Part shown: one piece after another, positions 17,810 through 20,168 of the stretch | Layout: each line of letters starts with the position of its first letter | Position numbering within the stretch: the stretch's first letter is position 1 | DNA from: a virus | Virus record (IMG/VR): IMGVR_UViG_3300021371_000126 | Coordinates: 1-20,168 of that record | Length of the DNA: 20,168 nt | Reading direction: 5' to 3' (one strand) | Made by a program: the position numbers and the translations under genes | The notes under the pieces: model-generated | Database searches by the model: none | The model's input: the letters and a program-made list of their open reading frames with translations, nothing else | What the model was told of the DNA's origin: nothing

Positions 17810-17819
17810 ATTAAATTAT

Positions 17820-18227
17820 ATGGAATTAAAATCACGTTTATTAACAGACAACGATTGGAAAACCTTATGTAAATGGTGGGAAGCGTGGCCTAAATGGGTT
17901 AATCCACCTAAAAGCTTTTTACCCGATAATGGTAAAGGTGGGTTCATGGTTGAAAAAAATGGTAAGCCAATATGCGCGGGGTTTATATATTTAACAAACT
18001 CCGACGCAGTATTATTGGAATGGATTGTATCAGATCCAGAATACAGAGATAAAGATAGAAAACAAGCTTTAGAGTTGCTTATAACGACAGCAGAGGATGC
18101 TTGTAAAGCGCTGGGTAAAGTGCACATGTTCTCCATTGGTAGAAACAGACATTTAATAGAAACACATAAAAAATTAGGGTGGCACGTTGATAAAGACCCT
18201 TCATACGAAATAATAAAAAACATATAA
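17820..18227 (+). CDS. GNAT-type acetyltransferase-like protein
   Basis: This 135-residue protein has the length and strand order of a GNAT N-acetyltransferase, an enzyme family that moves an acetyl group from acetyl-CoA to an amine. An aromatic N-terminal part (KWWEAWPKWVNPP, 18-30) is followed by strands FMVEKNGKPICAGFIYLTN (42-60) and LLEWIVSDPEYR (65-76). The acetyl-CoA loop RDKDRKQAL (76-84) lacks the usual glycines of the R/Q-x-x-G-x-G/A motif and is degenerate. A helix and the closing HLIETHKKLGW (111-121), typical of the GNAT 'N-x-x-a-x-x-x-Y-x-k-x-G-F' end, follow. The substrate is unknown. It sits between the tail and ejection protein genes with ten bases upstream and three downstream, so it is expressed with virion proteins. 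It may modify a virion or host protein, or have become structural. Confidence 0.68.
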   Translation: MELKSRLLTDNDWKTLCKWWEAWPKWVNPPKSFLPDNGKGGFMVEKNGKPICAGFIYLTNSDAVLLEWIVSDPEYRDKDRKQALELLITTAEDACKALGKVHMFSIGRNRHLIETHKKLGWHVDKDPSYEIIKNI

Positions 18228-18230
18228 ACT

Positions 18231-18953
18231 ATGGCAGTAGCAACAGCAATTGTAGGCGGCGCGCTAGCGGTTGGTGGATCCGTCGCAGGCGCAGTAACAG
18301 CAGGCAAAGAAGCTAAAAGAGCTGGTCGAGCAGCGGCAAGCGCTAGAGCTCGTATGGACTATATTGAAAACAATAGACAAAGCATTATAAATCCGTATGA
18401 CCAAATGTCTTCTGTTTCAGATTTAGCTTCAGATCTACAAAACACTTTAAATAATCCTTTTGGCAAGCTTGGCGTTGCAACTAAAGCTGCGGAAATGCAG
18501 GCGGAAGAAGCAGATATAGCTCTTGCAAATACATTAGATACATTGCTAGCCACAGGAGCTGGCGCTGGTGGAGCTACAGCATTAGCACAAGCTGCCTTAC
18601 AAAGTAAAAAAGGAATATCAGCTAGTATAGAAAGCCAAGAAGCTAATAATGAAAAAATGAGAGCTGAAGGCGAACAGGCTGCTCAAAAAGCTAAATACCA
18701 AGAAGCCGTAAGAATGCAAAACACTGAAATGCAAGATGAAATGCGTTTACAAAATGCTAACGCACAAGGTAGAGCATATGCTTTTGAAATGGAAGAGCAG
18801 CGAGACGAGAATATGCTTGCAAGATTAGCGGGCCAACAGCAGCAAGCATCTGCACAGCGGTCACAAGCACAAGCAGGAAAAGCCGCAGCGTTTGGTGGTC
18901 TAGCTAGTATGGGAGGAAGTTTACTTGGCTCAGCAATACCAGGATTAGGATAA
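18231..18953 (+). CDS. Internal virion / ejection-type protein
   Basis: This 240-residue protein begins with a Gly/Ala/Val-rich hydrophobic stretch (about 3-25) with small-residue spacing like a glycine zipper. A long Ala/Gln/Glu-rich helical body (about 40-215) follows, and it ends in a second Gly-rich hydrophobic segment (about 222-240). This layout resembles small internal virion proteins of podoviruses (such as T7 gp14 or the P22 gp7/gp20 set), which leave the capsid with DNA and insert into the host envelope. No sequence motif proves it; the assignment is from composition and from position at the tail-to-ejection boundary. It starts three bases after the acetyltransferase stop and thirteen bases before the next gene. 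Alternative: an assembly or tail-associated coiled-coil protein. Confidence 0.62.
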   Translation: MAVATAIVGGALAVGGSVAGAVTAGKEAKRAGRAAASARARMDYIENNRQSIINPYDQMSSVSDLASDLQNTLNNPFGKLGVATKAAEMQAEEADIALANTLDTLLATGAGAGGATALAQAALQSKKGISASIESQEANNEKMRAEGEQAAQKAKYQEAVRMQNTEMQDEMRLQNANAQGRAYAFEMEEQRDENMLARLAGQQQQASAQRSQAQAGKAAAFGGLASMGGSLLGSAIPGLG

Positions 18954-18966
18954 ATAATAAAGCAAC

Positions 18967-20168
18967 ATGGAAAAACTAAATTGGAACATACCAACAATAA
19001 AAGCTTCTAGAATCTCCGGATCTGGCGGATCTAGAGGGAGCGGCGGAGCTAACTGGAGTTCGGTTGGACAATCTATTGCTAATGTTGGTTCAAGTATTGC
19101 TGCGGGTATAAACTTGCGTAGACAAAATATAAAGCACGAAAAAGAACAGCAACTAAAACTTTTGCAAGACCGAAATAAAACAAGCCAATTGCTTTATGAT
19201 AAAGTAGGAATGGTTAAGGGCTCTTTTTCTGGATTTGACAGCGAATTTGAAACTAGTAAAAATGAATATTTTTATGGCCTAATTGATAAGTATGTTGAAA
19301 TAAAACAGGCAATGGATGATCCTAGTAGTGGCATAGATTTAGCTCTAGGAAGGAGAGCGTTGTCAGATATAAATACTCAGGTAGATAAATACAAGGAATA
19401 TGCTCCAAAAATATTAACAGCCGCCGCAAAGCTTAAAGAAAATTTAAACATTGGGTTTGGTAAAGCTGGCGCGATAGCAGGCGGCGTACCTACAGCTCAG
19501 CAGCAGTTGCTTTTAAATCTTGTAGAAGGTGGTAATGTTAGAATAATGGATGATCGCGGAAACTTGGTTTTGTATGATGTAAACGACAAAGGTGATGTGG
19601 AAAATGTATTTAACATAGATGAATACATGCGAGTAACCAATGGCGGGACCGACCCTGAAAAATATTTTAGAACAATTGCTGATCTTACAGATGAATATAA
19701 AGGAGCTGCATCTTTAGTTGGAACACCTCAACAGCCTAATACAACTTATTATGATTTTGAAACCACGCAGTCTGGAGATGGATCTCAAAACATAGTTAAT
19801 CTTGCGTGGAAAAAAGATAAAAACGGTATTCCCGTTGGTAAAGAAGCAGCAATAAAAAATATAGCAGCTAGCGGCTTTAATTATATAACCGAAGATCCTA
19901 AAGAAACACAAACTATGTCTGATCTTTGGAATGACACTATTGGTGTAGATTCTAGCGGTATAACAGGGCAAGACGAGCCTTGGAACCCTAAAGATGAAAC
20001 AAAAAGAAAATACGAAGTAAAAGGATATGTTGACGATGTTACTGGTGAATTCGTTTTTGATCCAAATGGTGATTCAACTCAAATATTAAAAGATGTTTTT
20101 GGTAATGAGCTTGAATTAACCCAATTAGAGTTTGCAAAAAGATGGCTTGCAGAAGAATCAATTCATTT
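18967..20168 (+). CDS. Large ejection-type or internal virion protein (partial)
   Basis: This frame opens at ATG 18967 and stays open for 400 codons to the window edge, so the C-terminus is missing. Residues about 14-52 are a Gly/Ser-rich stretch then a small-residue amphipathic segment (VGQSIANVGSSIAAGI), followed by a charged helix with many Lys, Glu and Gln. The rest (about 70-400) is mixed helical and acidic with no recognised motif, for example YEFETSKNEYFYGLID-like segments and a region near 205-225 with MDDRGNLVLYD. Its N-terminal design echoes the preceding gene. Position at the end of the virion block and large size suggest a P22 gp16 or T7 gp15/16-like ejected protein, but this is inference. 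The leader ATAATAAAGCAAC is A-rich with no Shine-Dalgarno sequence. Confidence 0.65.
   Translation, partial: MEKLNWNIPTIKASRISGSGGSRGSGGANWSSVGQSIANVGSSIAAGINLRRQNIKHEKEQQLKLLQDRNKTSQLLYDKVGMVKGSFSGFDSEFETSKNEYFYGLIDKYVEIKQAMDDPSSGIDLALGRRALSDINTQVDKYKEYAPKILTAAAKLKENLNIGFGKAGAIAGGVPTAQQQLLLNLVEGGNVRIMDDRGNLVLYDVNDKGDVENVFNIDEYMRVTNGGTDPEKYFRTIADLTDEYKGAASLVGTPQQPNTTYYDFETTQSGDGSQNIVNLAWKKDKNGIPVGKEAAIKNIAASGFNYITEDPKETQTMSDLWNDTIGVDSSGITGQDEPWNPKDETKRKYEVKGYVDDVTGEFVFDPNGDSTQILKDVFGNELELTQLEFAKRWLAEESIH

Follow-up and report, generated by a model that had tools for sequence, protein, structure and literature searches.

Why should a virus keep an acetyltransferase-like gene among the genes for its particle? 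This question is raised by positions 17820 to 18227 of the window, by which we mean the whole 20,168-nucleotide stretch of viral DNA analyzed here (IMG/VR record IMGVR_UViG_3300021371_000126, positions 1 to 20,168). The gene, its neighbors and the protein features discussed below are listed in Table 1.

Table 1. Window coordinates of the GNAT-type gene, its neighbors and the protein features discussed in the text.
Feature	Position	Strand	Basis
Large tail protein, 1698 aa	11264..16360	+	phrog_14478, common to the 472-aa protein (apparently split muzzle)
Tail gene, C-terminal part of crAss-type muzzle, 472 aa	16391..17809	+	PF25729 E 7.9e-11, PF25731 E 7e-8
Predicted GNAT-fold protein gene, PHROG 17252 family	17820..18227	+	ORF, PHROG, AF2 pLDDT 94.2, PDB fold matches, dN/dS
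E67 on strand beta4, possible general base	18018..18020	+	E/D in 100/101 of main set; G in phi40:1
Degenerate cofactor loop RDKDRKQAL, residues 76-84	18045..18071	+	Column counts, alignments
Motif-B-like N109..H116KKLGW121 (usual GNAT N..A..LYeklGF)	18144..18182	+	Column counts, model
240-aa gene, Ala/Gln-rich, hydrophobic N-terminus, ejection/internal-virion type, T7 gp14 position	18231..18953	+	Neighbors, PHROGs
Next gene, at least 400 aa, runs past window end, T7 gp15 position	18967..20166	+	ORF, slot survey

A genuine gene and its predicted fold

The open reading frame starts with ATG, encodes 135 amino acids and is under strong purifying selection, with dN/dS values of about 0.06–0.12 against close relatives (NG86; median 0.10, n = 79 pairs). 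Because dN/dS is about 0.1, the product matches PHROG 17252 (E 1.9e-31, positions 1–133 of 134) and relatives are encoded on at least 577 IMG/VR stretches, this is a genuine gene and no chance ORF. An antisense ORF at 17816–18307 was set aside as a mechanical ORF. PHROG 17252 takes in all 62 of the 62 relatives scanned as well as the proteins found in the same genomic slot of Podoviridae sp. ctfjg026, Cellulophaga phages and phi38:1/phi40:1, but is itself without assigned function. New for this family are the predicted GNAT fold, the family-wide loss of the cofactor loop and one member reported from virions.

The closest annotated relatives of the window are Podoviridae sp. ctfjg026 (TerL 63%), Elemovirus of Flavobacterium, Maribacter Panino and Pachyviridae, among them Cellulophaga phi13:2, phi18:3, phi19:3 and phi46:3 and Tenacibaculum Gundel_1. 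No bacterial homologues of the GNAT protein were confirmed in genome contigs, and a Panino-based scan for further relatives gave no matches. In one pair of near-identical contigs (L021 8001-8432 and L026 8001-8384), one contig has an 8-residue duplication (SIGRNKHL) and the other a short deletion around motif B, reflecting either variation or assembly error. Elsewhere in the window, a 201-aa ORF (46-651) located two genes before TerL showed a weak match to Cpn10 (PF00166, E 2.1e-4, just above the cut-off); in Elemovirus, a GroES gene lies directly before TerL.

The AlphaFold2 model of the protein, built with a 62-sequence alignment as input, had a mean pLDDT of 94.2. In a Foldseek search against the PDB its best matches were GNATs with E values of about 1e-6, namely RimI, N-acetylglutamate synthase, YqjY and Ard1, and in VIA the model was aligned with RimI over 129 of 135 residues (Z 15.6, rmsd 2.4). 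RimI, Ard1 and YqjY share the fold at Z values of about 15, but are only 11–18% identical to the window protein, which is missing their canonical loop. Based on this model, we are confident that the protein is predicted to have a GNAT fold across the whole domain. The support from sequence comparison was weaker than that from structure, yet concordant: a Pfam search with the window protein itself gave no match, PF00583 matched 20/62 relatives (best E 5.7e-5), and PHROG acetyltransferase profiles were matched weakly by relatives. The original prediction had called the gene acetyltransferase-like and proposed structure prediction as a check, with any other fold speaking against it; the fold found is that of a GNAT.

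Cofactor loop and catalytic positions

GNATs carry the pyrophosphate-loop signature R/Q-x-x-G-x-G/A. In the window protein D79 and K81 stand where the loop glycines belong, and we counted the corresponding alignment columns in 101 non-identical relatives. Position 79 was occupied by Asp in 76 relatives, Lys in 9, Leu in 5, Glu in 4, Ile in 3 and Arg and Ala in one each, plus gaps, with Gly in 0/101; position 81 was Gly in 1/101. The Arg between both glycine positions, R80 (18057–18059), was found in 101/101 relatives. The replacement of the loop noted in the original prediction is thus part of a family-wide loss of the glycines. At position 116, usually Tyr in GNATs, we found His in 76, Tyr in 15 and Phe in 7 relatives, and Leu in phi40:1. 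Outside the classical site, P35, G41, G54 and T59 are invariant.

The main clade therefore retains a shadow of a catalytic site, without the pyrophosphate loop. We infer that the protein is catalytically inactive. A catalytic remnant, with residual acyltransferase activity in the main clade, is possible, since E67 is nearly always acidic there and the outline of motif B is kept; given this acidic beta4 residue, such a remnant could still act on a virion or host protein. A fully active acyltransferase, in which a non-canonical loop would use R80/K81 in place of the glycines to acetylate a virion protein during assembly (e.g., the N-terminus or a lysine of an ejection protein), appears unlikely to us. 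It would agree with a fold whose nearest matches include the acetyltransferases RimI, Ard1 and YqjY, with the beta4 acid and motif-B outline, and with the strong conservation of the gene, but both glycines are missing throughout the family, the first mostly replaced by Asp, and the Tyr acid is mostly replaced too. Moreover, phi40:1 keeps the slot although all catalytic-type positions are lost: its protein gp098, the most eroded relative, has kept neither the loop Arg nor the two glycines, and the acid on beta4 and the Tyr/His of motif B are gone as well.

The slot between muzzle and ejection-type genes

The 240-aa gene starts 3 bp past the GNAT stop codon, and some homologues of its product match the virion structural PHROGs 13764 and 6121. 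We surveyed this slot in 140 records, which are partly redundant. The GNAT gene and its upstream gene were co-oriented in 138/140 records, a muzzle-C homologue lay directly upstream in 135/140, and the downstream neighbor, usually an ejection-type gene, mostly followed after 1–4 bp. The same order of TerL, portal, capsid-type protein, tail proteins, muzzle, GNAT and a small, a medium and a giant protein was also seen in ctfjg026 and Elemovirus. The position amid virion genes, as originally described, is hence confirmed, and synteny, the loss of which had been named as evidence against the idea, is kept at the locus. As for the muzzle itself, it looks split in the window (1698 + 472 aa), is one gene in Elemovirus and phi38:1, and is in more than one piece in ctfjg026. 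The 1698-aa protein has two Gly-rich GSGY-type modules (residues about 688-758 and 1290-1350), the first of which matches the head-closure/baseplate PHROGs 460 and 438.

When phage records were searched by tblastn, muzzle-C was found in 87 and GNAT in 80. The seven muzzle-C records missed by the GNAT search (phi38:1, phi40:1 and Calle) have the slot filled by a diverged homologue, represented by phi40:1 gp098 (PHROG 17252 E 3.5e-10; E 8e-7 in BLASTP against the window protein), and a match was obtained in seven of seven. Taking the 80 tblastn matches and the 7 diverged homologues together, all 87 of the 87 muzzle-bearing records appear, by count, to have a GNAT homologue. Within the window's clade, the median identity of the GNAT protein was 63%, compared with 39, 36 and 24% for its neighbors. 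In crAss001, the muzzle gp44 is directly followed by gp45 with no GNAT gene between them, and the family HMM gave no match on the partial genomes of crAss001 and phi14:2.

Evidence on the presence of the protein in virions differs between lineages. The deposited record of one phage, phi40:1, notes gp098 as 'structural protein' from experimental MS/MS proteomics, so that the relative that looks most enzyme-dead, to judge from its residues, is the one reported in particles. The phi38:1 record (L182 6763-7161) credits 'phi18:1_gp98' for its structural annotation; the MS/MS note sits on phi40:1 gp098 (L184 6763-7161), so the name given in the phi38:1 record is apparently a slip. In the phi18:3 record gp112-115, 120, 121 and 123 are marked as MS/MS-detected, but the GNAT protein gp116 is unmarked, and presence in the virion therefore does not appear to be general.

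Further variation was found in the Pachyviridae. The GNAT gene lies on the strand opposite to the virion genes in phi19:3 and Gundel_1. Between phi18:3 and phi19:3 the GNAT proteins are 36% identical, compared with 99% for muzzle-C and 100% for the first ejection protein, which looks as if phi19:3 had exchanged the entire gene for one from a distant branch of the family. Around these two genes (L002 9001-9411 and L003 9001-9411), identity is 98-100% for most of the flanking tail proteins and first ejection proteins.

Probable reuse of the fold and its alternatives

T7 has an equivalent slot, in the order gp12 (tail tube B), gp13, gp14, gp15 and gp16. With 138 aa, T7 gp13 is close in length to the window protein. 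Its AlphaFold2 model (pLDDT 93.7) has a predicted GNAT fold (Z 12.1, Foldseek 3e-5) with the same order of elements; the window and gp13 models were each compared with PDB GNATs. The glycine loop (GxG) is not conserved in gp13 homologues either. T7 gp13 is labeled 'probable scaffold protein' in Pfam (PF11090) and 'internal virion protein' in PHROG 308; T7 gene 13 (L032 5308-5724) thus combines a scaffold label with a confident GNAT-fold prediction, and our literature search found no paper linking DUF2833/gp13 to the GNAT fold. The window protein did not match PF11090 or PHROG 308 at E 1, and hhalign of the window family against gp13 gave P 0.01–0.1 with a probability below 4%, above controls but not significant. 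Direct sequence homology was therefore not demonstrable, and membership in the gp13 family is not claimed; the window family resembles gp13 in predicted fold and in slot, and would work like it. Homology of the downstream proteins to T7 gp14/gp15 was likewise not demonstrable (hhalign P 0.08–0.5), and homology of the 240-aa family to T7_gp14 is not claimed, with the Pfam family matching 2/46 members (best E 0.25). T7 gp13 is needed for assembly, but is not known to persist in mature particles. The virion proteome of the T7-like phage phiPsa17 lists T7-type structural proteins, and a gp13 homologue is not among the rows considered of that list (PMC4517105).

Between the tail tubular B and internal-type genes of Alteromonas phage ZP6 lies ORF12, a 132-aa protein annotated as an acetyltransferase and, like the window protein, without GxG. 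It matches PHROG 4177 and PHROG 308, not PHROG 17252; through its match to PHROG 308, the PHROG of T7 gp13 (E 1.5e-8), it connects acetyltransferase-annotated proteins with the gp13 type at the sequence level. The slot hence recurrently holds a GNAT-fold gene (T7 gp13, ZP6 ORF12, PHROG 17252 family), and the original view that an enzyme gene is out of place here does not hold. Not all phages share this arrangement: in LUZ19 the gp13 slot holds no gene, and the GNAT of this phage, Rac, is located elsewhere. We tentatively propose that at least three groups of podoviruses (T7-like, ZP6-like and marine crAss-type/Pachyviridae/Pervagoviridae) might have in common a catalytically dead protein of ancient GNAT origin, encoded between the tail nozzle and the ejection genes and acting as a shared chaperone or adaptor in the loading of ejection proteins. 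T7 gp13 would be its unrecognized member; we hold this to be possible, though short of probable.

For the window family itself, the evidence points to a reused fold more than to an enzyme. The explanation we prefer, with somewhat better than even confidence, is a GNAT fold minus the canonical acetyl-CoA loop that serves the ejection/virion module without catalysis, or at least without being driven by acetyl-CoA any longer. The protein would be produced alongside the muzzle and ejection proteins, would most likely bind at least one of these while the particle is assembled, may help the internal (ejected) proteins to be loaded or ordered at the portal/tail, and would be retained in the particle in some lineages only. 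What the analysis shows is the predicted fold, the family-wide loop loss (with R80 kept), purifying selection, the conserved slot and the one record of a virion-reported relative, phi40:1 gp098; T7 gp13, ZP6 ORF12 and the higher conservation of the GNAT protein than of its neighbors in the window's clade also count in its favor. Beyond this, we infer that catalysis is absent, which proteins are bound and what part is played in assembly. Counting against reuse are gp116 of phi18:3, undetected although its neighbors were detected by MS/MS, and the opposite strand in phi19:3 and Gundel_1, and the 36% identity of the phi18:3 and phi19:3 GNATs beside flanks of 99-100% argues against a tightly co-evolved interface there. 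Of the three functions originally offered, structural reuse is thus the best supported, by the family-wide loop erosion and the MS/MS note on gp098; acetylation of a virion or a host protein is possible, but less likely.

Somewhat less likely still than acetylation of a virion protein is an enzyme or effector directed against the host, which would be produced late or enter the cell along with the ejection proteins and would have an aim comparable to that of phiKMV Rac. Host-acting phage GNATs do exist: Rac (gp28 of phiKMV/LUZ19), a GNAT-related protein encoded near virion genes, alters the host RNA polymerase, the alpha subunit of which is cleaved, in a manner dependent on predicted acetyl-CoA pocket residues (PMC7552054). 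The authors of the ZP6 study took its GNAT-type gene as host-directed (PMC8515928), and the divergence, inversion and replacement of the whole gene within the Pachyviridae would fit. However, Rac is located before the particle protein and head-tail adaptor in the LUZ19 map, shows no detectable similarity to the window protein (BLASTP E 0.16) and needs its pocket residues, whereas the cofactor loop of the window family is eroded; the slot is moreover kept across distant phages, and in the window's clade the GNAT protein is better conserved than its neighbors. We regard it as improbable that the protein is a sensor or switch with a different ligand (nucleotide, peptide, tRNA or a non-CoA cofactor), bound through R80 and the P35/G41/G54/T59 surface; invariant residues outside the classical site would fit this, but Gly and Pro may be invariant for structure alone. 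That the gene is a passenger or was inserted by chance, with no part in the virion module, is suggested by the opposite strand in phi19:3 and Gundel_1 but scarcely credible against synteny and selection (slot kept in at least 135/140 records, dN/dS about 0.1, the phi40:1 MS/MS note).

Genes of this type are annotated as 'acetyltransferase' and read as metabolic or host-modifying, or left hypothetical; on the present evidence, many of them probably belong to the ejection/assembly module. The role of T7 gp13 and its location in the virion are poorly defined, and for this protein a fold and hence testable ideas are suggested. In marine short-tailed phages, an old enzyme fold has probably been reused for virion building, much like T7 gp13; if true, distant phages would provide a clear example of how an enzyme fold becomes material for building virions.
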